Assembly: GCA_026413255.1 (NCBI GenBank)
Contig: JAOCZO010000025.1
Span: 91,795-155,794, forward strand
From: Fereydounia khargensis
Taxonomy: Eukaryota > Basidiomycota > Ustilaginomycetes > Urocystidales > Fereydouniaceae
Direction: 5' to 3'
Length of the DNA stretch: 64,000 nt
Positions 36,943 to 62,404 of the stretch are shown here, piece after piece. The notes under the pieces were generated by a model, which worked only from the letters and a program-made list of their open reading frames with translations, was not told the origin of the DNA and searched no databases. Every line of letters begins with the position of its first letter. The stretch's first letter is position 1. The translations under genes and the position numbers were made by a program.

Positions 36943-38526
36943 GAAGATTGTGAATGAAATTGGTGTCTTTGGGTTGAGTCTGCTTGCGTGTGTATCTTGA
37001 GAGGCGAAAGGGTCAGATAAGACGGGGGAGACTGTGAAGAGGTCTGAACAAGCATCATTATAGCAGAGTGTAATGCTCTGGTGGTAATTCGTCTCTTGTC
37101 TCAGGTTAGTGGGGAACAGGGCTGGAGGAATCAGAGCAATGTTCGGACTGGGCTGTGTGGATAGTCCCGGCCTGCAATGTTTCTAGGTTGTCAACAACTT
37201 GGACTTTGGCCTCGTCGTTTATTCGTCATGCGTACAACCCTGAGTCATACTGGACGGACTGGGCCTTGCAAGCTTCGGTTCGCGCGAATGTCGGGCGAAC
37301 GTTCTCGGTTCAAGGTAGTGGTTTGATTTCCCCATGCTTGAGGTCACGAGCCCTAGTTCTGGGCAAATGAACGCAACTGGGTTGGGACCAGTAAGACCCA
37401 TGCGCGCTGCTTCGGACAGTCCTTCCTACCCGCAAAACCCCGCCTCCACCACGTTGCACAGGTGAGATCAGATGTTGATCCTGTCACCTACTTTCCATGT
37501 CACTTCATCGGGCGATGACATCGTAGCAACAGCTGCGTTGAGTGCTGCTCGAAGTCACCTACAACACGCTTTGATATCAGCACACTTTTATCTCATTATT
37601 ACCCTGAAGGGGGAGCTCGTCGCTTGCAAAGAGTTCTAGGCTCGTTATTTTCTTCCATCATACTAGCGTAGATACTTTCGACACTCTCGGCCTTGGGGGA
37701 TTCTAGAAGGCAAATGAAGCGTTTGTTCGCGTGAAGACAAAGTAGACTCCAAGAATCGGTCCCTAGATGTGGGGCCCCGCTCATTCGCAAACCTTTCTTG
37801 GAACATGGCAGCGGTCGATTGACTCTTGAGAGGTCAGATGAGTTCAAATCCATGCCTACTGCCTTCACGACTCGTGTCAGTTTGAGCAATTCCCGCGCTG
37901 CTGGTAAAGAGCGTATCGTAGCAACGAACGGTTGGGCTGCGCGCCATGGATCCCGCGAATGGCGGAGGTTGAATTTCCTTCGGTTCGGCTGCATTAAGCA
38001 CAACTGATGCATGCAGACTCTCTCCGAACCGAACGAATCGGAGGGGGCTGCTCAGGATTCCCCACCCAACCCGAACCGTGGAAGTGTCTCCGGAAAGGCT
38101 CACGGGGACGGGCAATATTACAGAATACCAAGATTAGGGTCTGACAATTCGAATATCTAAGCGCGGGACGTTCAATCATGAGAGGAAGAAGAACAAGCAA
38201 ACGTACCAGTACATATTCCCCCATTTTGTCTCTCACCGTCCACTTCCCCAACCTAAGCTCAATACATCGAACGGTGATATCCTTCAAGATAACTTCTCCT
38301 CTTCAGGGTGTCGGAGTTCCGTGAGAAGCTTCCTAACAAGACCTTTGCATAAGCTTCTTAAACATTGCATCCAGGCTTAACGATAAACACGATAAATCCT
38401 TCAGCAGAAATCGAGGTTTGCCTTGAAGCCGAACTTATTATAAGGTCCTGTCCATCTCGACAAGAAACGGGGAACGAGAAGCAAGAAGCGAAAAGCGAGG
38501 AACAATCAAGACCGTCCTTTTTGAAT
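36943..38526. other. Intergenic region, promoter of the 14-TM transporter
   Basis: No gene recognised. Three CCGAACCG/CGGTTCGG motifs at 37981, 38024 and 38071 lie 450-550 bp before the transporter start. Confidence 0.55.
37981..38078. promoter_or_regulatory. Cluster of three CCGAACCG motifs
   Basis: CGGTTCGG at 37981 and CCGAACCG at 38024 and 38071, within 100 bp. The inverted CGG triplets resemble targets of Zn2Cys6 regulators, one of which is encoded at 43909-46585. Function is inferred only. Confidence 0.45.
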
Positions 38527-40225
38527 ATGGAGGGAAAAAACCAGAACAACTCAACCCACGTCGATCTCGCACCTGTGGAGACTCGAATGAGTGATTACGT
38601 CCCACCGGTCATGTCAGATTGGCAGCGGCGACTCACCATGTTGACGCTTTGCCTCACCCTGTTTCTCAGTGCTCTCGACGTAACTATCATCTCGACCGCG
38701 TTACCTACAATTGCCCGAGAGCTTGGCGCGACAGGACAGCAATACGCTTGGATCAGTAGTGGATTTACTCTGTCCAGCACCGCTTCGACCCCCGTATGGG
38801 GCAAAGCATCCGATATATTCGGTCGGCGTTCTACCGTCATCACAAGTGCTGCAACGTTCATGGCAGGTAGCCTGGTCTGTGCCTTGGCCTCCGATGGCTC
38901 TATGCTTATCGCCGGCCGTGTAGTGCAAGGTCTCGGCGCTGGCGGCTCTCTTGTGATGGTCACCATCATCATTGGAGATCTCTTTTCTTTGAAGGATCGC
39001 CCCAAGTATTATGGCTATACGGGAATGGTTTGGGGGATTTCCAGTGCCCTAGGTCCGGCGCTTGGAGGAGTTTTTGTCGAGACGATCGGATGGCGATGGT
39101 GCTGTGGGTGACCAAACTAAGCTTATATCGCACTAGTCTGTCTGCTAAACGGTCAACTTTTTATCTTTTCTGACAGTCTACATAAACCTTCCTTTCGACG
39201 GTCTTGCCATCATCATTTTGTTTTTCGTGCTCAAGGTGGAAATCCAACGTGAATCGATCAGGGAAGGTCTGCGAACACTCGACTGGGCTGGTTTTGCCCT
39301 CATCATTGGTGGTACGATCCTCTTTCTCTATGGGCTAGAGATGGGAGCGACTAAGACACAGCCGTGGTCCGCTCCCATGGTCGTCTGCATGATGGTCTTT
39401 GGCATCCTACTTCTTACTTCTTTCATGGTGTGGGAGGCACGATTCGCGGCCAAGCCAATCATCCCGGGCCGCATATTTTCCAAGTCCACCAATATGGCCG
39501 CGTTCGTGCTTGCATGTCTGCATGCATTCACGGTAATCTCGTACGACTTTTTCTTGCCGCTATACTCGCAGATCATTCTCGGCCTGACACCTTTGATTTC
39601 TGGTGTGACACTCTTCGCCTTAGTCCTGCCAATGTCGTTCATGCCTATCGTAGGGGCGTTTGTCATTCGCAGGACAGGCAACTACGTCTATCCTTGTTAC
39701 GTTGGAGCCATCTTCATGACGCTAGGTAGCGGGCTCTTCATTAGCTTCAAGACAGAAAGGGAATGGGCCAAGGTCATCTCATTCCAGATCATCGCTGGCT
39801 TTGGAGCAGGTCTTCTCTTCCAGAGTCCCATGATTGCTCTGCAAAACTTTCTACACCAGAGTGACATGGCCGCAGCGATGTCAGCGTTCAGCTTTTTGCG
39901 AAGTCTCTGCACATCGATATCCGTCGTGATTGGGTCTGTGCTGATCCAGCACTCGTTGGACGGTGGAAGCATCACATCTCTCCACGGTAACGGAGAAGCG
40001 GCACAAGACACGTCTGAACATGCGTACATGACCGGGCTACGCAACATGTGGACATTTTATTGTGCCGTCTGTGGGCTTATGCTCGCATCCACTGCATTCA
40101 TCAAGCAGAAGCGAAAGACAACGACTATCACAAACGAAAAGAAACCTCAGCCGACTCAAAGTACAACTTGCAAAGCGAGTCCCCATGAAACGTCTTCCGC
40201 CAGCGACGTAAAGGAGATTCCATAA
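38527..40225 (+). CDS. MFS transporter of the 14-TM drug:H+ antiporter type (DHA14)
   Basis: Two exons, 38527-39103 and 39177-40225, with a 73-nt intron (GTGGGT..GACAG). The splice restores the family motif GWRWCFYINLPFDGLA. The product has 541 residues with a polar N-terminus. Other MFS marks are LFLSALDVTIISTALPTIA (TM1, motif D1), WGKASDIFGRR (motif A), QGLGAGGSLVM (motif B) and GISSALGPALGGVFVETIGWRW (motif C, antiporter signature). Exporters of this group expel toxic compounds or secondary metabolites from the plasma membrane. The C-terminus is a polar tail. I chose the start at MEGKNQN; an ATG at 38365 extends a non-family tail. Three CCGAACCG motifs lie upstream. Confidence 0.93.
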
Positions 40226-41151
40226 AGAAGTATGGAGAACCGTTGTAGTGGTGGTGTCTCTAGTAGACATTTCAAATATTTCCATAGACGCTTTGATCCA
40301 GATCCAGAGTGCACGTACTTGAAGAAGCGATCGGCAGGTTGCAACGATGGCAAATATAGATAACTCAATCGTCTGTGCTTGGCAGCTATGGGGTCTGTGC
40401 GGGTATCGTATCGTACTCGTGGTCTTGATTGGTTCCGAAGATTCGGGAGATCTGGCACTCAACAATTACACGCACCACTTGATTCTGGACCAAACGAACC
40501 AAGAAGGCTCGCATCTCCCCAATGCCCACAGGTTCTTACTCCTTATTCAAAGTTTAAGTGCACACTGTAAATGGTTTGAAACCCACCCGCTGCGATCGCC
40601 GGAAAAGAAAACACAGATTTACATTTCATGCTGGAGAACGCTTCAAAGTGCACGAAGGACGTACAGTACTGTAACTTTCAAATAGCGGGTCGTACACTGA
40701 TGTTTTCATTTGAGCAGAGCAACCGAAGGTACAGTATGTCACTGTGGTTCAAATTGGCAATTACAGCAACAAGACATTCCTGACAATGTTAGCCCAGGAA
40801 ATCCACTTCATACTCTCTGATTCCATGTATCTCAAACCAGGTTTTCAAAGGCAATGTGAAGCAGCGAAGGTTCGCATCTTGCAGCACGATCGAACGGTTC
40901 AGAATGAGCAAGAGATCGACACTGGATCATGATGGTGTTTTCAAAACGTACTGAATTCCCGCTGCTTATGCCGACCAGCGCGGGATTTCGCGGGACGGCA
41001 GCACGGCACCACAAGTGGTAGTCAGACCTACGGAACACATGCTTCTGCGAGTCAGTGACACATTACTTCGAGGCTCTTCTTTGCACTAAACGATGAATTC
41101 CCTGTACTGAAGCTTTGCGACTGACGGTAACCAATCAAATTTCCAATTTGT
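40226..41151. other. Convergent spacer
   Basis: Lies between the 3' ends of the two MFS genes. No gene is seen. TACAGTA/TACTGTA motifs occur near 40663, 40668 and 40731. Confidence 0.55.
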
Positions 41152-42952
41152 TCAAGCTTTATCCTTGGTAGCGACCCAGCGCCCAGTGAAGATGCGGATG
41201 CGTTTACCGAAGAAGTAAAGGAGTATGGCAAAGGCACCCATGACAGCAGTGAGGCCAGCAAACATGTTGAACGCTCCATCGTATCCCATCGAGTCAATCA
41301 TGTCCCATACGCGGAAGCTGACTCCAAAGGAGAGCAATCCTCGATGGGCGCAAATGATGATGAGTAGCGAGCTAGCTCGCTGAGGGTACGAGTCAAGCAG
41401 GTAGGTAATCGCGACAATGTTGGCGCCGATGAATGTGAAGAAGTAGGCGGCAAGGGCCCATACGTAGGTGAACCAGTGGTACTTGTCCGGGTGCGTTGCG
41501 CCCTGTCCATAGAGGACGGAGGTGATCACTCCAACGATAATGGGCAGAATGAGAGGAATCAGTCGAGTCTCGGGCTCATGAATGCCTCCACGTCGCTTGG
41601 CAAACCACTTGATGATCCAGTCACTACCGAACCCGTAGATGGGCAGAGCCACAAGCGAAGTGATGATCTGGCCGGTGTTGGCATAGCTTGTCGAAGAATG
41701 AGGCCAATTATAGGGGGCACCCTCAACAATGCTTCCGTACTGTAGGAAAAGATTTAAATCAGACACTTTGCGAGCAAGGTAGTGACGGAAAAAGGGGCTA
41801 CTGACTGTCATTCCAATGGCGATGTTGCAGCCCAAAGTGACGCCGTTGATGGCCAGAGCCCAGAAGACGTTAGGGAAGAGAATCAGCGTCCAGGCATCCT
41901 TGAACACGATCCAGGCCTTGTCCCATTCGGGTTTGCCCACCCAAAGACGCATGCTCGAGCGCAACGTACGCGGCTCGTACCGTTCATAGTCGAGGGAAGG
42001 ACGCTCCGTATGGATACGAAAGCCCTGGTCGGAGTGCAACGATCCACTGCCTTCGGTAGCATTGGTACTCTCCTGATACGAGGATTGGGGTCGGTAGTAC
42101 TTGGTCTCGGGGAGGAGGAAGAAGGCTGCAACAAAGCAAAGGCCACATAAACAGCAGCCAATTCCGTACCACCACTGCGGACCGATTGCAGCCGCGATAG
42201 GTGAGGCAAAGAGAACGAAGATGGCGACGGCGATCACCTGAATTGTCTGCTGAATCATAAGGAAGCGTGCACGTTCGTGCAAAAAGACGATCTCCTGCGT
42301 AATCATGGGCACCAAAGCTTCGCTCTGTCCAGCTGCAATCCCGAGGAGCAGGCGTGAGCCAAGATGCCAGTTGTAGTTGTGTGCCGCGGTTCCTGCACCT
42401 GCGCATAGGCCGATGGCAACGCACATGATGGCTGTTGCAACGAGGAACACACTTCGACGGCCCACGGCGACAGCAATTGGCATGCCAATCAAGTTTCCAA
42501 TGCCCATGGTCAGGTTTGGCAGACTGAGCATGTAGCTGATCTCCTGGTACCCCTTTCCAATAGAAGCATACTCAGGAATGTAGAAGCTGAGAATGCCTCC
42601 AAAGCCGCTGACGATACCAAGGCCGATCACCGAGAACAGCGAAAGGCAAACGATGATGACAATTTTTTGCCACACAGGCAAGTTGAGAGGGTCTGTGGTC
42701 CGGTGCACACACGATATTAGTTGTGGTCGCCATATCTCAATTTCTTTTGTCCGATTGCTTTATTTGTAGCTCACCCTGAGGATCGGCAGTTGGCGCTGGG
42801 ACGTAGACAATCTTGCCTGCCGTCAGCTGGACGGTGCCGCTCACGTTGACTCGGGATTTGTCAACCTCAAGCTTGAGTTCGTCTTCATTATCGTAGGTGG
42901 TCACCTCGACGTCGAGGCCGTTGGCATTCTTAATCTTGTCTTCGTCATCCAT
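41152..42952 (-). CDS. MFS transporter, 12-TM type
   Basis: Exons 42952-42775, 42692-41806 and 41739-41152 give 550 residues. Intron 1 (42774-42693, 82 nt, GTGAGC..CACAG) is certain because the frame breaks. Intron 2 (41805-41740, 66 nt, GTCAGT..CTACAG) is in frame and without stop codons, but removing it joins IGMT to YGSIVEGAPYNW, the usual loop of this MFS group, and deletes 22 residues that fit no helix. The N-terminus is acidic. Marks include GMPIAVAVGRR, RLLLGIAAGQSEALVPMI and PETKYYRP, and a long polar central loop. It is likely a plasma-membrane symporter or exporter; substrate unknown. It shares a promoter region with the divergent Zn2Cys6 gene. Confidence 0.88.
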
Positions 42953-43908
42953 GATCTGTTGGAGAAGCTGGGTTGAGTTTGCAAAGAAGGGCAGGCGCGG
43001 GATAAGTGCGCTGGAGTACAGGCTAGAGTGACGCTATGAATGATCCCTTTTATTTTAGAGACCATCTCCTGATGGATCTGTCCAAGACATAATCTTTCAG
43101 TGATGGAGCAAGTGGGTTAGTCGACAGTCAAGGGCAGGAACAGGGCTGCAGCGACTTGTTGCAGCTAAGAGCGGGTTAATGCTTGTATTCGGAAGACAAG
43201 GAAGCGCATATCCACGTAATGATGAAGGCGCGCTCTCTCGAGATGTCCATGCTGAATGTGCCATGTGGCTATGCGTTTGAACCGAGAAGGGACTTGACAC
43301 GTCGTGAGAGTCTCTGTTCTCGACTGCCAATTAACATGTCGGGGAAGTGGGGAGACGGGGGATGAACCTTTGAAGCCAGAAGGACGAACTCGGCTACGGA
43401 GGTGCGAGTGTAACTCAGAGTTCCCCGCGCGCGACCTTTGCATGCAGCCACAAGGATTCCCCGCGTGGAGCCCCGCATTTGTTGGGCTTCCAAGTTACTG
43501 TGTCTCTCAATTGTTGCTTGAAGCTGCAGATCGAGGTCCATCTGCCCTTTGGTGCGGTGGAGCGTTGGTCGTCCCCCACGCTTTTCTCGTTTTGATCCTG
43601 CAGCCAATCCAAGCGCCCTGATTACCTCCTGAACCGAACGCCAAGCTCGCCACCCCAAACAAGTAACTTAATCTTCAACCTCTTGTCCTTGACCCTCAAA
43701 TACCCCCGAACCGATCGGATTACCTATCTCGTCGTCTGAACCGCTCAACCCATTGCTTTTTTCTGAAACGCTTGTCTTAACCCACGCCAGCAGCAACGGT
43801 CCAGTCACCACCAAGCCGGACCCCGTTTGTCCCTCGCTCAACCGAATTAACTCTGGCGTGCCTTCCTCAATCGAGCCTGTCAACGAAGTTGCCCAGTGTC
43901 TCGTGGCC
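42953..43908. promoter_or_regulatory. Divergent promoter between MFS transporter and Zn2Cys6 regulator
   Basis: A 956-bp region with one full CCGAACCG at 43706 and GAACCG half motifs near 43274, 43631 and 43738. Most lie near the regulator start, so the regulator may control itself. A frame at 43753 could extend the regulator N-terminus. Confidence 0.5.
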
Positions 43909-46585
43909 ATGTCCTTGATAGGCCGTGGAAGCGACAACAGCAGCAAGTATGCCGGTGCGTCCACCGAAGTGGAAGCAGTAGCTTCTTCTTCTCGCGCTCC
44001 TCGCAGTAAACCAGACCGTCTGTTGCTGGCATGTAACCCTTGTCGAAAACGAAAAGTCCGCTGCGACGCATCCCAGCCGCAATGCAACAACTGCGCACTT
44101 CGAGGGGATCACTGTATCACCATCGACCCACGCCGCCCCAATGCGCCACCCGTGACTGCCCGCCGCCGGACCACTTCAAGGCCTAGTCACAGTTCTGCTG
44201 GTCAGCGGCAGCGTCTGGACGACAATGTAAACATCAAGAAAGATCGACGCAAGTACACGCAGACTCAGGCACCAATGCAGTTACCCCAACAAGAGGAGCA
44301 GAGTATGGATGCGTTTGCTGTCACTCAAGACGCCGCTCATGATACGATTCCTCAGCCGCATGCATCTCGATCTACTGTGCTCGATCAGGGTCTCGGCCTT
44401 TCTTTCACGCCATCGAGTCCCAATGAACGTACAGTCAGCCGACCCAATAAGCGTACCCGATCTCAATCCCAGACTCAACATTCGGCGACCGACAGCAGGG
44501 CTGCTGCCAATCACCCATCGTCGGGCTCGACCAGATCACATGAGGGGAGCATGCCAGAACTGCCCACATGGATGTCACGGGCATATCAGGAGGTTTCAGC
44601 GGAACAAATGCCGGGCTGTCCAAGTTCTGAGCCCAAGGACCCCTCCGTGGCAGCTCTAGACATCGTTGTCAATACCGATGGCTCGCCACATCGGCTCAAG
44701 GTCAGTTCCAGCCTTGTCTTCAATCAAAGAACCTGATTTACTTAACAAACAAGCTGTCTGTGAAAAAAGGTACACGGCGGCAGTAGCTTGCAATGCCTCT
44801 TCAAATTCGTGGACGTCGGCCTGGCAACCTATGGCTTTGATGCCACGGCACCGCTTTTCCGGCATGGTATGACGCAGAGTGACGAATTTGAGATCCCACT
44901 GCTGCTGTCTTTACCTGATCTTCCCGAACGTTCTTTGGTCTGGCGATGTATCGACGCCTTCTTCGATCGCATCTGGCCTTTATTTCCGGTAGTGGATCGG
45001 GAGGCTGTGCAAGCGGATGCGGATTTTTTGCTCGGCGTGCAAAACGAAGAGGCAGGAGGAACTTCTGGACGTCTGCAAGGCAAAGTCAACGCAAGTCGTA
45101 TTGCCAGTCTCTCCGCTATTTACGCAATCCTCTATATTGGCATCAATGAACTCCGCTCCGGACCCGCAACCTTTTCCGTCTCGTCATTGACAACGTCATC
45201 CAAATATCTCACGGCTTGCTACAGCCTTCATGCTCACTTGACGGCTTTGCCGTATCACTCGAGCGTACAAGCACTGCTTCTCCTCGCCCTCAGTCTCCGA
45301 GGCTCGGGCAAGGACGGACAAGCTTGGAATATAGTGGGGATTGCGACCCGAATCGCCGTCTCGCTCGGTCTGCACAAAAGCGTGGGCGTGCAAAAAGTGA
45401 CCAGTGCTGACGATAGCTTTGACAGGCGATTATGGTGGTCATGCCTAAGTCTGGAGCGGTTGCTGCAGCTCGAGTGCGGTCGCCCTTCCAGTACAGACTG
45501 GATGAGTCACTGCGATGATCAAAATGACGATCAAGACATTGGAAACAGTGAAGATCCGCCGGAAGGTTCAGAGGAGAATCGAGACCTGCTCAACGCATGG
45601 GTCTCGCTCTCTGGTGTTATGCGCCAGATCTTTGACAAGTTCTATACGCACCGATTTGGCAATGCAACCGAGATGCTGAGTCAGGCAGCATGGCTGGCGC
45701 AACGGCTGACCACCTGGGAAGCGGGACTACCAGAAGACCTGAAGCCGTCCAGCAGCTCGTTCAATACGGCGCCGGGGCATGAACAAGTCTCGACCGTGTT
45801 TCTCGCTCAACAGCTCTACCATGTGCGTTCTCAGCGCGATCCTGTGCTGGCATCTTTCTGCAGACAAGCTGACTAGACGCTTGACTCTTGAACAGGCTCA
45901 GATTGCAGTGCTACGCGTAGCCATCCTATTTCCACCTAAGGGATTCCAGTATGAGGTGCAAAAGTGTAGCCTGGAAGACGCAGCAATTCAACGTCTGGCT
46001 GGCGCCGCATCGCAATGTGTCAGCGCAGCCCGAAACCTGATCACGCTCACACTCCAGCTCGCGGATGCTGGTGTGCATTCCATGCTTATCAGTGTGCCAC
46101 AGACCCTGCTTGCAAGCGTCGTGATCTCGCTCAGCATCCTGCGCAGCCCGGAAAGTCGTCTTGCTCGCTCTGATGTCGAGCTGCTCACCTCGGCTACAAC
46201 CTTTGTCGAAGCTTGTTATCAAGCATGGGGATACCCAGCCACTTTTCTTGACATCTTGGTCAGGCTAAGAGAAAGAACGGCCGCGATATCTCGCGGAGAA
46301 GCAAGGCGGCTCACGCCGGCTCCCCAGGGCAGCAATCACAGCGAGAGCACTCATACAGACCACCGTAACCTTGGTCTGAGTCGCGGTAATCACCAAGATT
46401 ATGACCAAGTCTACTCGGAAATCGCACCAACTGTCGGAACAGCTGCGGGACAGAATGCAAACCACACGATCACAGAAGATGGTAGACAGATTAGTTTTGG
46501 ACAGCTGACAGGGATGGGGATCGAGGATTTCTGGGACATGCTCAAGGCAGATATGTTCATGTACGAGGATTGGAACCTGGCTTGA
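43909..46585 (+). CDS. Zn2Cys6 fungal transcription factor
   Basis: Three exons, 43909-44700, 44770-45822 and 45896-46585, with introns of 69 and 73 nt, both in phase 0. The product has 844 residues; an in-frame ATG at 43753 would add 52. The binuclear zinc cluster is near residues 41-68 (ACNPCRKRKVRCDASQPQC and on, with the last Cys in RGDHC). A basic linker and Ser/Gln-rich region follow. The fungal_trans middle homology domain begins around residue 300, with FFDRIWPLFPVVDRE and RLWWSCLSLERLLQLECGRPSS. The C-terminus is acidic (MGIEDFWDMLKADMFMYEDW), fit for activation. It is probably the local regulator of the metabolic genes around it, several of which carry CCGAACCG in their promoters. 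Confidence 0.93.
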
Positions 46586-46674: not shown

Positions 46675-47839
46675 TCAGTAGTCCAACACGCCAGCAAGGC
46701 GCAAAACCTGGTCTGTGAGCTCAGGCTTCTCGAACGGCTCGGCGCGGTACTTGGGACAGACTTTGCCGTCACGCATGGGCTTTTTCTCGGCGGGGCGAAT
46801 GTTGCAGTGGGGCCAGTGTGTGGTACCGATCCAGTTCTCGAAGCACTCTTTCTTGGCAGCGAGAGCCTCCTCATTGGCGTATCGTTTGGGAGTCATGCAG
46901 ATGTACTGGACGTGCCTGATCTGGTTACCTTCGGGCATACGGGCGTAATGCATGGTGCGCGAGTCCCAGAGAACAAAGTCACCAGGTTCCATATTGACCT
47001 TGAACATCTCGCAACCACGCTCCTCAAACCATTTGATGTCCTTCTCGCTGAAGAGGAATAGGTCCATGAACTTGAGCTCAGGCGGCGGTGCATCTTCATG
47101 GTCGGCTGACTCCCGCTTGTGTGCGAAGAATTCGTTGAAGAGCTTGGCCGAGCCACGCATGAGCATGAGGCCACCGTCCTTCGGGCCGTTGGGGGCAAAG
47201 TTGAGCAGGCCTTGGACAGCTTGCATTCTGCATGTTCGGAATGGATTGAATTGTCAGTCTCACGAAACTCTGAAGGCTGGAAGAGTTACTAGAAGTTTAA
47301 GGATGGAAGAAACCGACGTACCCCTTACGCTCCGGGTTCTGGTCGCAATGGGGCCAAGGGCTCCAGTTGAGATCCTTGCGATTCGGAAGAGAGATGTTCA
47401 AGCCATCGAAGGAGCAAAGCAGCTCCTTGGTTCCCCAGAGCTTCTCAAAGATCTCGATAATCTTAGGCTCTGTTCGGGCTTCCCAGGCCATCTTCTCATG
47501 AGTGGCGGCATAAGCGTGATACATGCCACCCTTGAAGCTGACGGGAAGGTGATCAGCAGTCCACGTCTCCGGGTCGTTTTCATCGAAGCCGAGTTCGAAG
47601 CTCTTGAGCCATCGGATCTGCTTGTCAACGTAGTACTGTGCACGCTCCGGAGAGATGGCACCCTTGATGAGGACGCATCCGTTCTTGTGGAACTCGTCGC
47701 GCCAGTCGCCGTAGACAGTGTTCTCGTCAAACTCGATCAGATCCCTGGTCTCGAATTGGGCGCCGAAAGTCTTCTTCTCCTCGGCCTCAGCAGGCGATGT
47801 GAGAGTGACAGTGTTGGTCGTGATAGTGGTTGTGGACAT
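46675..47839 (-). CDS. Phytanoyl-CoA dioxygenase (PhyH) family protein, copy 1
   Basis: Two exons, 47839-47322 and 47227-46675, with a 94-nt intron (GTACGT..GCAG); 356 residues. The non-haem iron site of the 2-oxoglutarate dioxygenase fold is visible: H164 and D166 in WPHCDQ, and the distal H266 in WDSRTMHY. NFAPNGPKDGGLMLMRGSA is the usual PhyH core, and Arg in IRHVQYICM could hold 2-oxoglutarate. It would hydroxylate a small or acyl substrate with O2 and 2-oxoglutarate. It has no peroxisomal PTS1 tail (ends GVLDY). It is a paralogue of the protein at 60899-61948; both share GTTHWP near the end. It is divergent from the CocE-type hydrolase, and the shared promoter carries CGGTTCGG repeats. 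Confidence 0.92.
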
Positions 47840-48049: not shown

Positions 48050-48222
48050 CGGTTCGGTTCAATGACACAACACCATACGCGATCCGGTTCGGTTCGGTTC
48101 GGTTCGATTCTGGTGCAATGCGTACGGTGTTTCGCGTGCACACAGTACGTGTGGGGTGACGCCGCCCCTGGTTTACGTTTAGGTCAACCATCTGGGAAGT
48201 GGGATTTCGTTGAACCGAACCG
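48050..48222. promoter_or_regulatory. CGGTTCGG array in a divergent promoter
   Basis: CGGTTCGG at 48050, three overlapping copies at 48085-48102 (a GGTTC pentamer run) and CCGAACCG at 48215. It lies between PhyH copy 1 (start 47839) and the hydrolase (start 48407). It could be a binding array for the local Zn2Cys6 regulator, or only a microsatellite. A second such array lies at 62117-62209 in a similar divergent promoter. Confidence 0.5.
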
Positions 48223-48406: not shown

Positions 48407-50259
48407 ATGCCCATTCCTTGCCAGATCGCTTACAAACCACTGACCCCGCCACAAGTGGGTGAGAATGGCTACGTCGAGCCTACGCCGGGCAAGTCCGAGG
48501 TCCTCAAGAAAGGCTCGGCTCCCTTTGGATGCCGAAAGCTCGACTCGGACGTGCGTATCGATCACGATGTCGAGATCGTAGTACGTGATGGCTGCCGCCT
48601 GTATGCAGACATTTACCGTCCTGCGACAGAGGACGAAAAGGTTCCAATCATCATCTCCTGGTCACCCTATGGAAAGAAGTACTCGGCGATCGACATGATC
48701 TTCAACGTATGTGTGTGGCGCTGTTGCCTCCAAGATGGTGATGTAAGCGGCCTTGAGAAGTTTGAGGGTCTAGATCCTGCGTGGTGGGTAGCGCGCGGGT
48801 ATGCTATTGCTAGCGTCGATTCTCGCGGTGCCGGGAACAGCGACGGCGATACACCTTGTATGGGGCTACAGGAGGCTGAAGATGCCCACGATGCAATTGA
48901 AGAGCTCGCCAAGCTCGACTGGTGCAACGGCAACATTGGCATGGCAGGCAATTCGTACCTCGCCATCTCGCAATGGCACGCAGCTGCACAGAACCCACCA
49001 TCCTTGAAGGCCATTGCACCATGGGAGGGCTCGGGCGACATTTTCCGCGAGCAATTCTGTCGTGGAGGATGGTTCAACATGAGCAACTTTGATCTTATCA
49101 CCAAGCTCGTTATCAAGGGACACCGCGGTGTCGAGGATTTTGAGGAAATGCACCGCAGACAACCCCTCGCCAGCGTCTACTGGAACGACAAACGCGTGGA
49201 CATGACCAAGATCAATATCCCTTGCTTCATTACCGGCTCTGATTTCAGCCAGATCCACACAATGGGTGCGATCCGAGGCTGGATGGAGGTGAACTCTGAC
49301 AAGAAGTGGATCAAGTGGAGCGGATACCAGGAGTGGTATGAGCTGTATGGTTGCCCTGAAAGCTACGATGAGCTCAAGGTAAGTTTCGCCCCCTTGCAGC
49401 CACACCTACCTGTCACTAACAGCTGACCCTCAATGCACAATCTTACATTCTTTTTTAGCTCTTCTTTGACAAGTATCTGAAAAACGTGGACAACGACTGG
49501 GAGAAAACGCCAAAGGTGCGATGGGCGACGCTTCCCTTCGGCGATCGAGACGTCAAGCATGACATTGTACTCTCCGACTTTCCTGTTCCCAACACGGACT
49601 ACCGCACACTGTATCTCGCACCCAACGGTGCCTTGTCGGCCGAGCTTCCGGGCAAGGCAGGGACGTCGTCGTACAACTCGGAAGAGCGTCAGTCAATTGC
49701 CAAGTTTCGCCACACGTTCTCTCAGGCGTCGCGTCTCATCGGTTTGCCCAAGGCAGAGCTGTACATGAGCTGCGAGGAACTTGACGACATGGTTGTCTTT
49801 ATCCAGCTGCGAAAGCTAGACACAAAGGGGAATGAGCTCAGCCAACTTCAGTTCCCTTTCTCCCGCTCACCTGTACACAAGATCTCCGAGATGGAGGAGA
49901 AGGACCGTGCTAGTCTGACGCTTCACAACGGCTCGATGGGTATTCTGCGCGCATCCCAGCGCAAAATCGATCCTTCTCGTTCCCTCCACCCGCAATTCCC
50001 CTTCCACCCGCACGACGAGGTGCAAAAGGTGACGCCCGGCGAGGTGGTCAAGCTTGAAATTGGCATTTGGGCTATGGGTGTCGACTATGAGGCTGGCGAA
50101 TCGATCCAAGTCGACATTCTTGGCCAGTACCCAGGCTTCACTGAAGTTGCTGCCTTCTCCAAGCCTCGTCCGGAGTCGGAGAAGAACAAAGGTACACACG
50201 TGGTCCACTTCGGAGGAGAAACTCCCAGCAAGGTCATCCTTCCTTTCGTAACCATGTAA
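48407..50259 (+). CDS. CocE/NonD-type hydrolase (X-Pro dipeptidyl-peptidase S15 superfamily)
   Basis: Two exons, 48407-49378 and 49459-50259, with an 80-nt intron (GTAAGT..TTTTAG); 590 residues. The alpha/beta-hydrolase part has the nucleophile S183 in GMAGNSYLA, the preceding SRGAGNSDG loop and LEKFEGLDPAWW. The C-terminal part (about residues 330-590) is the jelly-roll domain of the superfamily. Such enzymes cleave esters or amides, cocaine esterase being the known example. Oddity: where relatives usually have the catalytic His (a Trp-Leu-x-x-His stretch before the second exon) this protein reads KWIKWSGYQEWYELYG with no His, so catalysis is uncertain. No signal peptide, so probably cytosolic. 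It shares its promoter with PhyH copy 1. Confidence 0.87.
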
Positions 50260-51242
50260 TGATGTGTAAACATGTACGTGATTATGTGCACCACAGGTCC
50301 TGGGCTCGGGCCGGCCATTCGATACCAATCGAAGATGTTCCCATAGTACACTATGTGCAATCAAATGATCATGATCCCGCACCGCGCCGCAAATGGGTGA
50401 GGCAGAACGTGGTATATCCCTCCATTGGGTGCGGGTCACGCCCGCAAGAATACTGTCAAACATCGTACCACCTTTCTCACCATTTTGTCGCACGCAGGTA
50501 AGTGGCTACGACAAAGTAAAGTAGAGATGCCCAATCACCAGAAATGCACAGTCGGGGATGCTTCAGCCTCGAAACTCTCTGCGGGCACCACGGCGGGGTC
50601 CATCTCGGGGTGTGCTACCGGTCCCAGAAAAAAAGCACGCGGGGTAGAGGAATAGGCCAGAATGTTCGGGCTCAGTTGGCCGAGTAAGTGACCGACTGTT
50701 CGCTTGCATCGTACCCTTGTTGTGCATGCCCCCATGCGAATCGCTGCGAGCGACAGCGACCGGTCAATTTCTAGGCAAATCGACCTCGCTTCAAAAGTGT
50801 CTTGCATGACATCTTCCCAAGGCGTTGCATCTGGTCAGCTCAGTGTTGAACACACGCACTAATTTTGGCCAACCCCACCTTGCCCGAAGGTCCACTAATG
50901 CGACTCACAATTAGCCGCGAGTTCCGTTCAGCTTCGTACCAGTCACGTTCTTCACTGTTTCCACCTACCACATTCCCTAGCGGTTTCCCTTCTCCGCCAA
51001 CATGGTTCCACCTTGAGGATTGTCAGCCGTGTTTGGTCCACCATAATGGATGAGGACTTCGGTTCGGATGCATGTGCCCAGATCGAGACCCCTAGTCCGA
51101 GGCTGCCAGCGGTCACAATGTGTGCACTCGCCCGGTTCGTGAACTGCACAAATAGAACGGAGAGCATCTTCCTTGTTTTGACTTTCTCATCCAAATATTC
51201 TGCCTGTCGTCAACCTGGAGTGATTGATCATTAACAACCTCA
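50260..51242. other. Intergenic region, promoter of the carboxylesterase
   Basis: No gene in 980 bp. CGGTTCGG at 51060 lies 183 bp before the next start, and a partial CCGGTTCG near 51137. Confidence 0.55.
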
Positions 51243-52991
51243 ATGTTGTCCCAATTCCTTCTTCTCCTGACAGCTACTTCGCTCTTTGGGGCCTCGGGGC
51301 AACCAGCCAGGCTCCCTCGAGATGCGGTCGCCAAGTCAGCGTTTCCCTCCGTCCAAATCGAACGAGGCAACGTGATCGGCAATGTAAGCAGTAACGGCAG
51401 CCTCGAGACGTTCTTTGGTATCCCGTTTGCCAAGCCACCCGTCGGAGACCTCCGTTTCGCCAAACCAGTCCCACTCGAGCAGGGAGATGACAAGGCCACA
51501 ATCATGGCCCAAACCAAGGCACCGAGCTGCCCGCAAATGACTTTCTCGCCTGAGATGCAAGTGAACGAGGACTGCCTCTACGTTGATGTGTACAGACCTA
51601 GAGGCATCAAGAAAGGTAGCAAAGTTCCAGTATTGCACTGGACGTACGGAGGGGCATTCCGTGGTGGTAGCACAGCGGGTGTCTCGCCCACAGAGATTGT
51701 CGAAAGGAGTGCTAAGCTCGGACAGCCGATTATTGTCACTGCTGCCAACTACCGTGTCGGTCCCTTTGGCTTCATCGGAGGCTCCAAGGTCTCTAGAGAC
51801 AAGACAGCGACAAGCAATGCTGGACTTTACGATCAGCGTCTTGCGCTTCATTGGCTTCAGGACAATATTGCCGCATTCGGAGGCGACCCTTCTCGGGTCA
51901 CTATTGGCGGTCAATCGGCAGGCTCCATCTCGGTGGCCCTCCAAACGACCGCCAACGGCGGCCATCAGGGACGTCTCTTCAGAGCCGCAATTCAGCAATC
52001 CGGTACCGTCCCTTTTGGGCCAGTCCTGCAAGTCGACTCACCGCTGAACGCTGCCAACTTTGACGCTCTTGCCACGGGTGTCGGCTGCAAGGATGCGACG
52101 CTCTCCTGCCTGCGCAAGGCAAACGTCTCTGACGTCATCAGGGTCGGAGCGGAAATCAGTGATCTCTACAACACTCCAGAGCCACCTGCGGGCTACCTGG
52201 CATGGGCGCCCTTTATTGATGACTTTTTCGTCATCGAGAGCGGCGCTAAGCTCATTCGTCGCGGAAAGTTTGCAGATGTGCCTTTGCTGATTGGCAATGC
52301 CTATGACGAAGGAACGCTTTTCGTCAACTATGGCGGCAAGGTGCTCAACACCACAAAAGACTTTGAGACTTTCGTTAGCAAGGGATCTGTTGTACGCAAT
52401 ACGACCAACTCTGGACAAGTGATTCAAAAGCTCTTCGAGATGTATCCAGACGTTCCAAGCCTGGGCAGCCCGTACCAGAATCCTTCGACCAAAGGCAGTC
52501 TGGCGAGTCCTGACGCCGACGACCGCCTCTACAGCCCTCTCGAGTCGAACCAGGCGAAGCGTATCTGTTCCTGGCAGGGAGACTTCCTTTTCATTGCTGC
52601 ACGTCGTCATCAGGTGGCCGCGGCTGTGTCGCCGAGCCGTAAAAATGCACACAAGGTGTGGGTCTACGATTTCCGTCAGATCGACCCATCTCCTCAGGGA
52701 AATCTCTTGGGAGCTACGCACGGGGCGGATCTTTCTTACATTCTCGATCAGAAGCAGGGGTATGAATCAGATCCCGAGCTCAAGAGACTGATGCAAACCG
52801 CCTGGATCTCGTTCGTCACTCACCTCGACCCGAATACGCTTGATACCGGTGTCAACTGGCCCGCATACCACCAGAAGCTTGAACTCCTCCAGCTTAAAGC
52901 GGACAATGTGACCACGATTCCTGACGATTTCCGAAAGAAGAACACCGACTTTATCTTTTCAAAGGATGCTGTCAAGGTCTTTTCCTTGTGA
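51243..52991 (+). CDS. Secreted type-B carboxylesterase / lipase
   Basis: Single exon, 582 residues. The signal peptide is residues 1-19 (FLLLLTATSLFGASG), ending before QPARLPR. The alpha/beta-hydrolase triad is visible: S225 in GGQSAGS, E356 in YDEGTLF and H493 in ATHGADL. Family signatures are FFGIPFAKPPVGDLRF, EDCLYVDVYRP and the oxyanion segment, which here reads HWTYGGAFRGGS, not the common GGGF. Several N-glycosylation sites are present. It would hydrolyse esters outside the cell and could supply substrate to the intracellular oxygenases and transporters of the region. It is single-copy here and ends in FSL with no retention signal. Confidence 0.93.
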   Translation: MLSQFLLLLTATSLFGASGQPARLPRDAVAKSAFPSVQIERGNVIGNVSSNGSLETFFGIPFAKPPVGDLRFAKPVPLEQGDDKATIMAQTKAPSCPQMTFSPEMQVNEDCLYVDVYRPRGIKKGSKVPVLHWTYGGAFRGGSTAGVSPTEIVERSAKLGQPIIVTAANYRVGPFGFIGGSKVSRDKTATSNAGLYDQRLALHWLQDNIAAFGGDPSRVTIGGQSAGSISVALQTTANGGHQGRLFRAAIQQSGTVPFGPVLQVDSPLNAANFDALATGVGCKDATLSCLRKANVSDVIRVGAEISDLYNTPEPPAGYLAWAPFIDDFFVIESGAKLIRRGKFADVPLLIGNAYDEGTLFVNYGGKVLNTTKDFETFVSKGSVVRNTTNSGQVIQKLFEMYPDVPSLGSPYQNPSTKGSLASPDADDRLYSPLESNQAKRICSWQGDFLFIAARRHQVAAAVSPSRKNAHKVWVYDFRQIDPSPQGNLLGATHGADLSYILDQKQGYESDPELKRLMQTAWISFVTHLDPNTLDTGVNWPAYHQKLELLQLKADNVTTIPDDFRKKNTDFIFSKDAVKVFSL

Positions 52992-54463: not shown

Positions 54464-54611
54464 TAGACCCGGACACTGAGCTGACTAGACTTGGGCACGG
54501 AGTCAGATTCGGACACAGAGTTAGACTCGGACTCAGAGTTTAGACTCGGACTCAGAGTTTAGACTCGGACTCAGTGTTTAGACTCGGACACAGAGCTAGA
54601 CTTGGACAAAG
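54464..54611. repeat. Minisatellite, unit about 19 bp, about 8 copies
   Basis: Tandem variants of TAGACTCGGACTCAGAGTT; three central units (54522-54578) are almost identical and the outer ones decayed. Related single units continue upstream to about 54345. Confidence 0.9.
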
Positions 54612-54929: not shown

Positions 54930-54936
54930 TATAAAA
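54930..54936 (+). promoter_or_regulatory. TATA box before the small secreted protein
   Basis: TATAAAA, 26 bp before the ATG at 54956. The spacing is short and suggests a very short leader. Confidence 0.45.
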
Positions 54937-54955
54937 TGGAATGCTCAGCAACATC

Positions 54956-55250: not shown

Positions 55251-55926
55251 GTCCAGGCATACATCAGATTTCCACAAGGATTGACGGGGAAATTATGGTT
55301 AGCGTTAGTGTTCCTGGGTTCTTTTCCCTAGAAGGTTTCCCAGCAGAATCGTAGCTAGCTTGAACCATTGCAGTGTGTCATTGTCATGCCTGAACCGTAA
55401 CAGGCTCTGTTACGGTTCAGGCAAAGATATAGAAGTGCTCATTCAAATGAGCCATTTCATCGCCACTGAACGTTGTGCTTAGATGACTTTTGGGCTAGCC
55501 CAAACCTGGTCAGGTCTAGATCCGGAAGGAAGGTGAGGTTCGATGTGCTGAGCAGTCATCGCCCCGGCCGTCATCGGAGATCGGTGACAACCAAGTTCAC
55601 CTGGTCACAGCGCGGGGCCCTGTTTGATGATGCTGCAGTAGATAGGACAGTTTGGCTTTCGATCGATTCAGTACACAGGATTCATTTGGGATTCCTCTTG
55701 AAAGCATAAGACACGTGCTAGGGGATTCCACGCTTCTCGGGAGGGACCTCACACTACTCTGGCCCCTGGCACGAATGTCAGAGGCCCACATGACTGGCTA
55801 TCGTGGCACTGAGCGATCTGAGCGATGTGTAATGGAACGTAGATCATTGACAACAGAAACTGATCGACGCCCTTTTGGTTCTGCTTTTATCCCTCCTGTC
55901 TAGAATGCTGAGAGGATGCAGTATCT
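55251..55926. other. Intergenic region with repeat copy
   Basis: No gene. It contains the dispersed repeat copy at 55385-55530 and a short inverted TAACAGGCTCTGTTA near 55398. Confidence 0.55.
55385..55530 (+). repeat. Dispersed repeat, copy 2 of 2
   Basis: Matches 53020-53180 (see there). It stands downstream of a small secreted-protein gene. Confidence 0.6.
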
Positions 55927-56420
55927 CTAAACTGAGGTGCCGTTGTCAGCTGGTTCAAATTCGTTGAGCAAATTGGGTAGCTTGGTCCATCCAGCTAGGT
56001 TGATGTTATCCAGAAGGACGTTCGCATCCGTGTCTTGCAAGAGTACAATGGACCAGTGAGCGCCACGGTCGTTGACAGCTTTGAGGTTGTTGATAAACTT
56101 GCTGCTGTCGATAGACCAGCAGTTCCTCTTGCAGCCTCCCGGAGCATTTGGGCGATTACTGAAAGCTGAGGCCTGGATAAGCGCGGACACAATTAGCGCA
56201 GCTGCCCATGCAAAAGACCTCAAGGAAAGAACATATCATGACAACTTACACCTTTGTTAGGGTCCGCCCGGACAAAGTTGTTGCCGTCAGGCATATTGTA
56301 GTCGCCTGCGCGCAGGTTCGGATATGCCTTCGAAGCGTTTCCCACCCGGAAGATGGTCGCTGCCGACGTCTGACAGACCGTCAGGGCAAGGCAAGCTAGG
56401 AACAAGCTGTACACGTTCAT
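55927..56420 (-). CDS. Small secreted protein, candidate effector (138 residues)
   Basis: Two exons, 56420-56250 and 56172-55927, with a 77-nt intron (GTAAGT..TCCAG, phase 0). The joint reads DPNKG-ASAFSNRPNAPGGC. Signal peptide about residues 1-20 (VYSLFLACLALTVCQTSA). The mature protein has two close cysteines (GGCKRNCW) and the segments SSKFINNLKAVNDRG and WSIVLLQDTDANVLLDNINLAGW. I do not recognise the family. A TATAAAG on the minus strand at 56569-56563 lies about 145 bp upstream. Not joined, the two halves look like unrelated frames, so it is easily missed. Confidence 0.72.
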
Positions 56421-57197
56421 CTTGATGCAACAACGAGCGTGTTATTAGGGGGGGGGGGGGGGCGGGGAAGGTAGGGAAAGGGATCTGGACTCAGCCTTGT
56501 CGGCGGCCTATCTGCTCCGTGTTTGACAAGAACACGACAAAGATAGATGGCCACAGCGCTGCCTTTATACGGGACGGTCTCTTCGCCAAAGGAGTGATGT
56601 GCCAGGATTGGCTGTTGCAGAGATTTGTTTGAGCAGTCTTTGCGATCGGCGGAGCTCGCATTGAACGAGCTCCATCTTGCGTACAGTGCATGACATTGAG
56701 AGTCAAATGGTTGGTCAACCCCAATACATCCAGCGCAGAATAGCCCAGCCGAAAAACTCTGTGAGCCTGCAGAACAAGGCGTTGTGGGGTCAGTGGCAGA
56801 GCAAGCAGGAAACAAGGCTGACAGAGCGGCATGTCAGCCTCCAGATTGCTTGGTATCCAGCCATGAATGGAGCGTGAGAACGATTGAACGGATCAAAGCA
56901 GCTTGCGATGGCAACAGTGGAGACACTGTCTGATGTAGTTCAGGTTTGGGATCGGGTGCATGAGGGCCGAGTGATGGCATAAATGCATAAAATGGTCGGC
57001 TAAGTGTATAAAGCGCGTTCTTGCTCTCGTATGCACACGTTCGTCTCTCGTCACTCTAAACACTCTATCATCACTAGACAAGTCTGATGGACTGGTTGCT
57101 AGCCCGGTTCACTACACTGAGCTGTCGGGATTTGGCGTCGTTACACAGCTAGGTATTCAGGGCTGCACTTGAACTTGAGACCCCTGCGACAAGGAGC
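56421..57197. other. Intergenic region with a long G run
   Basis: No gene. It holds 15 consecutive G (56448-56462), the TATAAAG of the minus-strand gene, and another TATAAAG at 57007 before the next plus-strand gene. Confidence 0.6.
56448..56462. repeat. Poly-G run of 15
   Basis: It begins as TTAGGG and continues as G, 28 bp upstream of the small secreted-protein start. The length should be treated with care because such runs are error-prone. Confidence 0.85.
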
Positions 57198-60898: not shown

Positions 60899-61948
60899 CT
60901 ACTGGATGTACGGAATACCGGTCAGCTTCATGGCGCGTTCATTCAGCTGAGGCTCTTCCACAGGGCGCTCTCGGTTGTGAGGGTCCGGCTGGCCATCTCG
61001 TGTTGCTACGTTTGATCCAACATGGCGGGCGTTGGGCCAGTGAGTCGTGCCCACCCTCTTATCAAACGCTTCTTTCTTACGCCTGAGATCATCTTGGGAG
61101 GCTTCCGAAACGGGCATGAAGCAAGTATAGACGCAGAACCTCGGCTGGTCAGTTTCAGACGAGAGGTTGTAATGGGCGGTCCTTGAATCCCACAGGAGGA
61201 GATCACCAGGCTCTGCGCAGACCTTGGTCCACTCGCATCCGTGGTTCTTGAGCCATTCCAAACCCTTCTCCGTGAATCCGTACCACTCCGGGGTCCAAGC
61301 CGGGATCTTCTCCTCCCAGGCCATTTCACGATGGAACTGCTCCGAGAGTCGGTGCGAGCCCTTGCAGACGATAAGGCCACCGTCCCTAGGACCATTCGGG
61401 AGGAGATTCACTAGGCCTTGGAGACACCTAAATCCAGGCTTCAGAGGGTCTTGATCTTGGTGAGGCCATGGCTTGTTGGGGGGTAGATCCTTTCGTCCAG
61501 GGAAACCAAAGTTAACAGCGTCAAAGGATACGATCAGGTCAGGAGTACCGAGGAATTTGCTGAAGGTGTCCACTACTCCAGGCTCAGAACGAATCTTCCA
61601 GACCCAATCCTCGTGGGTTAGGCCGTAATGCAAGCACATTCCCTTCTCCGTAATCAGCGGAAGGTTGTCCTTGTGAACTGTCGATCGATTACCACGCTTG
61701 TATCCAAGCTGGAAGCCCTCGAGCCATTCGTGCATCTTATCGGCGTACTGCAGTGCCCTCTGCTGTGGGATAGCGCCTTTGACAACGCAGTAGCCATCGC
61801 GAAGCAGGTCACGGTGCCAAGCATCGAGATTTCCGTGGTCTTCAAGCTGGGGTTTACCTGGGATAACGTTGTTCTCGCTTACACTTGGTGGAGCAGCCGA
61901 GTCAAGCTTTGGAAGGGGGGCAGGCGTCGCAATTTGTACAGAAGTCAT
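60899..61948 (-). CDS. Phytanoyl-CoA dioxygenase (PhyH) family protein, copy 2
   Basis: Single exon, 349 residues. It has the iron triad of the 2-oxoglutarate dioxygenase fold: H163 and D165 in WPHQDQ, and H259 in WDSRTAHY. The core NLLPNGPRDGGLIVCKGSHR and the GTTHWPN segment near the end match copy 1 at 46675-47839, but copy 2 lacks the intron and is clearly diverged, so this is not a recent duplication. It has no PTS1 tail (ends GIPYIQ). Substrate unknown; probably a hydroxylase of a small molecule. A TATAAAG lies 53 bp upstream, and the shared promoter with the FAD monooxygenase carries five CCGAACCG motifs. A third, broken copy lies at 36811-36942. Confidence 0.92.
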   Translation of the reverse strand: MTSVQIATPAPLPKLDSAAPPSVSENNVIPGKPQLEDHGNLDAWHRDLLRDGYCVVKGAIPQQRALQYADKMHEWLEGFQLGYKRGNRSTVHKDNLPLITEKGMCLHYGLTHEDWVWKIRSEPGVVDTFSKFLGTPDLIVSFDAVNFGFPGRKDLPPNKPWPHQDQDPLKPGFRCLQGLVNLLPNGPRDGGLIVCKGSHRLSEQFHREMAWEEKIPAWTPEWYGFTEKGLEWLKNHGCEWTKVCAEPGDLLLWDSRTAHYNLSSETDQPRFCVYTCFMPVSEASQDDLRRKKEAFDKRVGTTHWPNARHVGSNVATRDGQPDPHNRERPVEEPQLNERAMKLTGIPYIQ

Positions 61949-62404
61949 GATGTTGTTCGTTGTGATTCTTGTCGATCCGATGAGAACACATGAAGTTACT
62001 CTTTATATGTTTCAAAGCAAGGATGGCAGACAACAGCAAGCCTGATGGAGGAGGGCCCAGACGGCTGAATTCATCGAACATGCGCACCGGTTCGACTCAT
62101 ACTCGTAGCACACTAACCGAACCGAAACGAACCGAACCGAATCGAACCTGTAAAGCCCAACCCAAACCGAACCGAACCGTACCAAACCGGGAAGGCCCAA
62201 CCCGAACCGAACCCTGCAATCTGTTTTCGCTGCTCTGTCTGCCCTGCCCATGCTTTCCGGGAGCAACGGTTGCGGACCGTGACAAGGTCCACCCCGACAT
62301 ACTACGCGGCATGATTTCAGGTCTTAAATGTTGCCGAATTCGCCCCTCCTTACAACCACCTGCTCCTCTTTGGCATTCACCCCTACTGAACTCAAGCCGT
62401 AATC
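61949..62404. promoter_or_regulatory. Divergent promoter between PhyH copy 2 and FAD monooxygenase
   Basis: A 456-bp region. It includes TATAAAG (minus strand, 62007-62001) for PhyH copy 2 and the CCGAACCG array at 62117-62209. The layout parallels the PhyH copy 1 / hydrolase promoter at 47840-48406. Confidence 0.6.
62117..62209. promoter_or_regulatory. CCGAACCG array
   Basis: Five CCGAACCG copies (62117, 62132, 62167, 62172, 62202) with CCCAACCC spacers and related AACCGAAAC variants. Candidate binding sites for the Zn2Cys6 regulator, or a degenerate pentamer repeat. Confidence 0.5.

Follow-up and report, generated by a model that had tools for sequence, protein, structure and literature searches.

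The telomere-proximal part of contig JAOCZO010000025.1 of Fereydounia khargensis raises the question of whether a short word that recurs in its promoters, CCGAACCG, marks genes controlled together by a Zn2Cys6 protein encoded among them. In the window, the whole stretch of 64,000 nucleotides analysed here, CCGAACCG has 18 exact copies on both strands compared with 1.86 expected, a count that is inflated because copies overlap inside AACCG runs (12 of the 15 sites in the cluster are non-overlapping). None of 100 shuffles of the window reached 18 copies. The first-pass annotation had estimated about 17 copies where about two were expected by chance and had assigned fifteen to promoters, both of which agree well with our counts. 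All 15 copies from 37,981 to 62,209 are intergenic, in the five promoter regions that it named and at the coordinates it gave, and no further copy was found on either strand in 37.0-63.9 kb. The sites and genes are as follows.

37981..38078, three CCGAACCG sites (37981 on the minus strand, 38024 and 38071 on the plus strand), 449-539 bp upstream of the exporter ATG at 38527
38527..40225, plus strand, MFS exporter, DHA2-like, two exons (MFS_1, 4e-36)
41152..42952, minus strand, second MFS transporter, ATG at 42952 (MFS_1, 7.6e-21)
43706..43713, plus strand, single CCGAACCG site, 196 bp upstream of the regulator ATG
43909..46585, plus strand, Zn2Cys6 regulator of 844 aa, exons 43909-44700, 44770-45822 and 45896-46585
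46675..47839, minus strand, PhyH1, Fe/2-oxoglutarate dioxygenase family, exons 47839-47322 and 47227-46675
48050..48222, five CCGAACCG copies between the divergent PhyH1 and CocE genes, of which three overlap within a single AACCG run
48407..50259, plus strand, CocE/NonD hydrolase of 590 aa, exons 48407-49378 and 49459-50259
51060..51067, minus strand, single CCGAACCG site, 176 bp upstream of the carboxylesterase ATG
51243..52991, plus strand, carboxylesterase of the sterol-esterase/lipase type (COesterase, 6.8e-90)
60902..61948, minus strand, PhyH2, Fe/2-oxoglutarate dioxygenase family, 349 aa, one exon (PhyH, 1.7e-10)
62117..62209, plus strand, five CCGAACCG copies, together with degenerate ones, between the divergent PhyH2 and monooxygenase genes
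62405..63737, plus strand, FAD monooxygenase, salicylate-hydroxylase-like, 420 aa, exons 62405-62461 and 62532-63737
63927..64000, plus strand, telomere at the contig end, 12.3 copies of TTAGGG

Reading frames are open in PhyH1 after splicing (PhyH match on exon 2 at 3.4e-07, HxD at residue 164), in the CocE/NonD hydrolase (Peptidase_S15, 2.7e-40; TIGR00976 CocE_NonD, 2.3e-48) and in the FAD monooxygenase (FAD_binding_3, 3.5e-19), whose PDB matches are tropone 2-monooxygenase and salicylate hydroxylase. The carboxylesterase has sterol esterase 4be4 as its closest PDB match, and its hydrophobic N-terminal stretch, read by eye, is likely a secretion signal. PhyH1 and PhyH2, about 40% identical to each other, are the only two PhyH dioxygenases found in the genome; homologues of PhyH2 reach up to 77% identity, and searches of solved structures with both proteins gave no match at E 0.001. 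The exporter's best NCBIfam matches are drug-efflux MFS proteins, below the cut-offs. Membership of the second MFS gene in a regulon is weak, because the single site between it and the regulator gene is 754 bp from its start codon.

A search of the whole genome, as proposed in the first-pass annotation, found 368 copies of CCGAACCG, near the chance level of 325 given by a second-order Markov model of 152 kb. Because this amounts to about 2.25 copies per 64 kb, the motif is not equally common genome-wide, and it is no general promoter element. Its longer form, TTCGGTTCGG (CCGAACCGAA), has 41 copies genome-wide, 10 of which are in the cluster. The five promoters total 3,985 bp, in which 0.13 copies of CCGAACCG would be expected at the genome's rate and 15 were found. 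The probability of all five being hit by chance is 1e-8, or about 3e-4 after multiplication by the 32,896 possible words, for promoter regions that were selected with the finding already in hand. An unbiased count of words gave just three 8-mers that occur in every one of the five promoters, each a shifted form of the motif, and a single such 9-mer, CCGAACCGA. When the same five frames were slid along C25 to the left of the cluster, a shared 8-mer appeared in 0 of 104 placements. The cluster promoters share a CGG-containing element that is rare elsewhere, as expected for a pathway-specific Zn2Cys6 regulon. Among the literature matches listed for CCGAACCG, no title points to a binding site with this sequence, and the motif is absent among those listed for CGGTTCGG, Zn2Cys6 and binuclear.

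Elsewhere in the genome, C10:353185-354175 contains the 9-mer three times in 1 kb and was rejected as a regulon member; these copies are explained by codon usage, because the DNA codes for an ATP synthase alpha/beta family protein (ATP-synt_ab, 6.9e-80). The copies at C1:300007, in low-complexity DNA inside a frame with a Pex2/Pex12 domain, were also set aside. Two copies at C12:335152 are located between DUF2256 and MatE genes and remain a lead.

The first-pass annotation considered the word palindrome-like, with CGG triplets in inverted arrangement, and here it has to be corrected. CCGAACCG is a direct repeat, CCG-AA-CCG, or CGG-TT-CGG on the opposite strand, and the repeats are partly extended into 5-bp TTCGG runs. 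In a scan of CGG spacings, direct N2 stands out (18 vs 2.0, z 11). The same scan gave no inverted spacing above z 2.2, as a GAL4-like inverted target would have, and direct N5, the spacing of a TerR-like repeat, is outside the 14 best. No oppositely oriented pair of CCGAACCG lies within 30 bp in the cluster, and the closest opposite-strand copies in the window (38024/37981) are 35 bp apart.

By analogy, the direct CGG repeats appear comparable to those of TerR in Aspergillus terreus, a Zn2Cys6 regulator that is also encoded in its cluster and has direct CGG repeats in the terrein-cluster promoters, several of them in a divergent one, like here (PMC4360782). The available part of that paper reports that a T preceding CGG favours binding and that monomers can bind single half-sites (PMC4360782). 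However, the TerR spacer is 5 nt (TCGGHHWYHCGGH) rather than 2, the terrein cluster is biosynthetic, and TerR binding was measured, whereas binding at the sites described here is predicted (PMC4360782). In fission yeast, the Zn2Cys6 domain of Pho7 recognises a TCGG-type site that lacks inverted symmetry, and the pho1 promoter has two direct-repeat sites, but these are 20 nt apart, the Pho7 motif TCG(G/C)(A/T)xxTTxAA differs from the motif here, and the pathway is phosphate starvation, according to the sections available (PMC5559640). Rss1 of Ustilago maydis (UMAG_05966) is a Zn2Cys6 protein of 866 aa, similar in size to the one described here and likewise encoded at a chromosome end of a smut (PMC5082525). 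It controls genes for the breakdown of aromatic compounds, one of which is salicylate-hydroxylase-like; CGG repeats in both inverted and direct orientation were noted in its own and target promoters, and the authors state that they were unable to determine its binding motif (PMC5082525). Rss1 is divergent to srg1, whereas the regulator here is divergent to an MFS gene and not to an srg1-like monooxygenase, and the Rss1 targets named in the available part of the report are not PhyH or CocE, unlike in this cluster (PMC5082525).

The Zn2Cys6 regulator predicted earlier in the middle of the cluster has both expected domains (Zn_clus, 3.2e-10; Fungal_trans, 4.9e-23), a frame that is open after splicing, and a site upstream of its own gene. 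No close paralogue was found in the genome, where the next match is 28% identical over residues 315-514. Its binding domain is 60-78% identical to those of 15 homologues, and the stretch behind it only 10-26%. The top PDB match of the binding domain is HAP1/CYP1 (E 2.9e-5), a weak lead; HAP1 binds a direct repeat.

Homologues of the regulator are linked to those of these enzymes in some other fungi, though not in every species. In Sarocladium strictum the regulator and PhyH homologues have neighbouring locus tags (NLU13_6911/6912), and in Fusarium nematophilum 7 tags lie between the regulator and CocE numbers. PhyH and CocE of Penicillium pulvis are separated by 286 tags, and the regulator and PhyH homologues of Lomentospora are on contigs of unequal length (equal lengths of megabase-size contigs are weak evidence of linkage). 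The comparison used 99 of the 120 listed PhyH rows, 26 of 33 for the regulator and 52 of 120 for CocE, and the resulting shares are not rates, because the CocE rows after P0183 were chosen toward species in the other lists. Given that regulator, CocE and PhyH homologues are linked in some ascomycetes, a cluster-specific regulator is supported. In trees, the smut versions are nested among ascomycetes, and no U. maydis protein is named among the 33 regulator homologues.

The element probably serves as a cis-acting site for a pathway-specific Zn2Cys6 regulon located at this chromosome end. The co-regulated set suggested by the first-pass annotation is supported in part, by the specificity of the motif, by the regulator's open frame and own site, and by the linkage of homologues, but without the inverted triplets.

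The main rival explanation is that an AACCG microsatellite grew by slippage in soft subtelomeric intergenic DNA, without regulatory meaning. The stretch 62115-62213 is called as tandem repeats with periods of 5 and 40. AACCG runs with three overlapping copies also occur on C6 and C21, in the latter case about 570 bp upstream of a threonyl-tRNA synthetase ATG, and slippage may therefore account in part for the runs at 48085 and 62117. We consider this unlikely as a full account, since it leaves unexplained the isolated single sites at 37981, 38024, 38071, 43706, 48050, 48215 and 51060, as well as the restriction to enzyme and regulator promoters (no exact copy lies upstream of the fatty-acid hydroxylase or of three small ORFs).

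It is also quite unlikely that the element is genuinely regulatory but read by a factor other than the cluster's regulator, given that the regulator gene lies inside the cluster with its own site and has homologues linked to CocE or PhyH in some fungi. In favour of this reading, other Zn2Cys6-like proteins are encoded in the genome, and a CocE paralogue near the end of C7 carries the 9-mer 276 bp upstream of its ATG. At 118 copies per genome, the 9-mer has about a 1% chance of occurring in a 1-kb upstream region, and the paralogue is weak evidence because this chance applies across eight genes. Family searches outside the cluster gave three CocE-family and six carboxylesterase matches as control loci (nine loci, eight genes), and CCGAACCG is present in three of the nine. 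The copy at L040, upstream of the C7 CocE paralogue, is the only promoter-like one; L042 has one copy within the frame and one behind it, and that of L047 is within the frame.

Shared descent, in which promoters were duplicated along with a PhyH gene and the motif is a relic rather than a kept site, would fit the similar divergent arrangement of the two PhyH genes. A 66-bp piece at 36868-36933, left of the exporter, is 82% similar to PhyH2 DNA; a protein-level search for a third PhyH there gave nothing convincing, and the match therefore remains a fragment. However, self-comparison shows the promoters to be dissimilar to one another, the site is also present upstream of the esterase and regulator genes, and a neutral promoter copy would have decayed given the divergence of PhyH1 and PhyH2, which makes this explanation very improbable. 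Chance or composition, with a word picked after the fact from many, can practically be dismissed given the shuffles, the sliding placements and the corrected probability.

If the element belongs to a pathway-specific regulon, the Zn2Cys6 protein of 43909-46585 would bind tandem TTCGG half-sites with the core TTCGGTTCGG, arranged as direct CGG-TT-CGG. Besides the site in front of its own gene, it would occupy those upstream of the exporter and the carboxylesterase and those within the divergent PhyH1/CocE and PhyH2/monooxygenase promoters, and these genes would be co-expressed. We infer that the regulator acts as an activator, turning the genes on jointly when the substrate or an intermediate is present as inducer. 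The enzyme set, comprising an esterase with a likely secretion signal, an intracellular-type ester hydrolase, an aromatic-type FAD monooxygenase, two dioxygenases and transporters, may serve to take up an ester-linked and perhaps aromatic compound and to degrade or detoxify it. No such cluster is apparent by title among the literature matches listed for PhyH with cluster, cocaine esterase or Ustilago.

A regulator with homologues linked to CocE or PhyH in several fungi gains a testable candidate binding site, and with it there is a handle on a recurrent catabolic cluster of fungi. A bolder and rather doubtful possibility is that a smut ancestor acquired the whole regulon, comprising regulator, enzymes and control site, from an ascomycete and that it still works, with a factor that reads tandem TTCGG at 5-bp steps and an array length that tunes promoter strength; no description of such a reading mode for the Zn2Cys6 family was found in the literature compared. 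The proposed regulon, if real, would also bear on whether control sites travel with their regulons from one fungal phylum to another, and on the way smut fungi regulate genes at chromosome ends.

The window contains 18 copies of the 8-mer CCGAACCG against 1.86 expected, whereas the whole genome has 368 against the 325 predicted by a second-order Markov model trained on 152 kb, which bears out the regional enrichment noted in the first-pass annotation. On the same model, the 9-mer CCGAACCGA is found 118 times genome-wide (87 expected) and the 10-mer CCGAACCGAA 41 times (17.5 expected); 10 of these 41, one quarter of all genomic copies, lie in the cluster within 37,979-62,211. The cluster also holds six of the ten same-strand CCGAACCG pairs in the genome with a gap of 30 bp or less. 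Given that CCGAACCG is near its expected count genome-wide while its pairs are concentrated in the cluster, it is not a general promoter element. By raw count, two other strand-merged 8-mers outnumber CCGAACCG in the window, GTACTGTA (the commonest, 22 copies, e.g., 2243-2256, 5457-5479, 36460-36473 and 40661-40673) and GTACAGTA (second, 21 copies).

Family matches identify an MFS exporter, a second MFS transporter, a Zn2Cys6 regulator (43909-46585), PhyH1, a CocE/NonD hydrolase, a carboxylesterase, PhyH2 and an FAD monooxygenase, and open spliced frames could be assembled for the regulator, PhyH1, CocE and the monooxygenase. The two PhyH matches are the only ones in the genome. The monooxygenase is salicylate-hydroxylase-like, with tropone 2-monooxygenase as its top solved-structure match, and scores below NCBIfam equivalog cut-offs. 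CCGAACCG sites lie 169-539 bp upstream of the start codons of the exporter, regulator, PhyH1, CocE, esterase, PhyH2 and monooxygenase, and for the second MFS gene the distance from upstream site to start codon is 754 bp. Left of the exporter, a 66-bp piece (36868-36933) matches PhyH2 coding DNA at 61762-61827 with 82% identity; a protein-level search found no additional PhyH there.

Five regions totalling 3,985 bp were analysed: 37500-38523, about 1 kb upstream of the exporter, and 42954-43908, 47840-48406, 50260-51242 and 61949-62404, which are essentially entire intergenic regions. Together they contain 15 copies of CCGAACCG (12 non-overlapping) against 0.13 expected at the genome rate. By chance, all five would be hit with a probability of 1e-8, which becomes about 3e-4 once multiplied by the 32,896 possible strand-merged 8-mers; the regions were selected with the finding already known. 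In an unbiased tally of every word, with 229 kb of this genome as background, the only 8-mers common to all five were GAACCGAA, CGAACCGA and CCGAACCG, and the only such 9-mer was CCGAACCGA; this tally is conservative because four of the background loci had been chosen for carrying the motif. When the five frames were slid along the part of contig C25 left of the cluster, irrespective of whether the DNA was coding or intergenic, none of 104 positions gave a shared 8-mer or 9-mer. Within 37.0-63.9 kb, no exact CCGAACCG was found outside the five regions; it is absent upstream of the fatty-acid hydroxylase, where there is one 7-mer, GAACCGA, and of three small ORFs. The concentration of the motif is real and well beyond chance. 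Given that AACCG runs are present elsewhere in the genome, part of the two cluster arrays may be the product of slippage.

The first-pass annotation had read the word as CGG triplets in inverted arrangement, and this part of the reading is wrong. When CGG/CCG pairs were tallied in direct, inverted and everted orientation for every spacer from 0 to 20, direct N2 dominated (18 vs 2.0, z 11, present in all five regions), followed by direct N12 (z 3.3), everted N7 (z 3.0) and direct N7 (z 2.5), whereas no inverted spacing rose above z 2.2. The direct N7 and N12 signals arise from runs that repeat every 5 bp. Genome-wide, CGGTTCGG follows CCGAACCG at a distance of up to 30 bp only twice, on contigs C1 and C15 and never in the cluster, and the closest oppositely oriented copies in the window, in any order, are 35 bp apart. 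The element is TTCGGTTCGG, a tandem of TTCGG.

As a point against the regulon reading, control loci with paralogous esterases beyond the cluster carried the 8-mer in three of nine cases, one of them upstream. Two unlinked loci are as follows.

C7:15477-19316 (L040), a CocE-family gene with S15 and PepX_C domains; the start of contig C7, a telomere, is about 17 kb away.
C12:335152-335169 (5153-5170 of L032), a pair of CCGAACCG copies flanked by a divergent DUF2256 gene and a gene for a MatE transporter.

The L040 paralogue has CCGAACCGA 276 bp upstream of its ATG and may be an unlinked regulon member, although we regard this as only a lead.

The closest named homologues of the regulator are from Ustilaginales (Pseudozyma, Ustilago, Sporisorium; 45-52% identity), and no close paralogue was found in the same genome. 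Its DNA-binding domain is 60-78% identical to those of 15 homologues, against 10-26% for the stretch behind it, and thus DNA specificity is likely conserved among them. Among the matches listed, regulator and PhyH2 homologues have adjacent locus tags in Sarocladium strictum (NLU13_6911, NLU13_6912); the regulator and CocE tags differ by 7 in Fusarium nematophilum, and PhyH and CocE 3 tags apart in Coleophoma crateriformis and 2 in Aspergillus hancockii. Judged from equal contig sizes, in tallies covering part of the homologue-list rows, regulator and CocE share a contig in seven of the nine species present in both lists, and 12 pairs of PhyH and CocE do so too. Counter to linkage, the PhyH and CocE tags of Penicillium pulvis differ by 286, and regulator and PhyH homologues lie on contigs of differing size in Lomentospora. 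In maximum-likelihood trees of CocE (26 rows) and the regulator (20 rows), the smut sequences fall into a single clade that nests among Pezizomycotina: the window sequence with P. hubeiensis (support 100/97) within a 14-row group (100/99) for CocE, and five smut rows (100/98) within a group of seven rows that takes in Sarocladium and Fusarium flagelliforme (100/99) for the regulator. Given that midpoint rooting was used for both trees and that they sample top hits only, we can at most infer horizontal transfer of CocE and the regulator.

The window covers bases 91,795-155,794 of the 155,794 of C25 and terminates in a TTAGGG telomere. The assembly comprises 10.46 Mb in 40 contigs; among the matches listed (the first 100 of 210 places), telomere repeats stand at both ends of C3, C5, C6 and C7 and at one end of C4, C9 and C10. 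Also in the window is a domain match to a regulator of ustilagic-acid synthesis in smuts, Rua1.

11283-13289, protein with a Rua1_C (Rua1 C-terminal) domain. Together with the Ustilaginales affinity of the regulator, this domain marks the fungus as smut-like.

Short dispersed repeat pairs occur at 30466-30557 and 53428-53519 (76% identical), one copy having an isolated CCGAACCG at 30467 that the other lacks, and at 53033-53090 and 55409-55466 (83%). The gene-poor stretch between the carboxylesterase and PhyH2 has a tandem array of about six copies of a 19-bp unit (54486-54608). Short open frames at 54935-55240 and 55927-56441 resemble small secreted proteins by eye; neither of the two, when scanned, had a Pfam match, and the motif is absent upstream of both.

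Most likely, the cluster Zn2Cys6 regulator would bind the TTCGG tandems and activate the gene set, its own gene included. There are precedents. TerR is described as using direct TCGG-type half-sites in the promoters of its own (terrein) cluster, as proposed here, and its monomers as able to bind a single half-site (PMC4360782); Pho7 of fission yeast likewise recognises a TCGG-type site (PMC5559640). Rss1 of U. maydis is similarly a chromosome-end regulator, and it governs aromatic breakdown; its target promoters are reported with direct and inverted CGG repeats, and the same account states that its binding motif could not be mapped (PMC5082525). The co-regulated set proposed in the first-pass annotation is retained with corrected geometry, strengthened by the genome-wide specificity of the motif and by the linked homologues in some of the other fungi, and an interpretation as a cluster regulon, with putative binding and co-expression, is plausible. 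The enzyme set suggests that these genes may serve to break down a compound that is ester-linked and perhaps aromatic.
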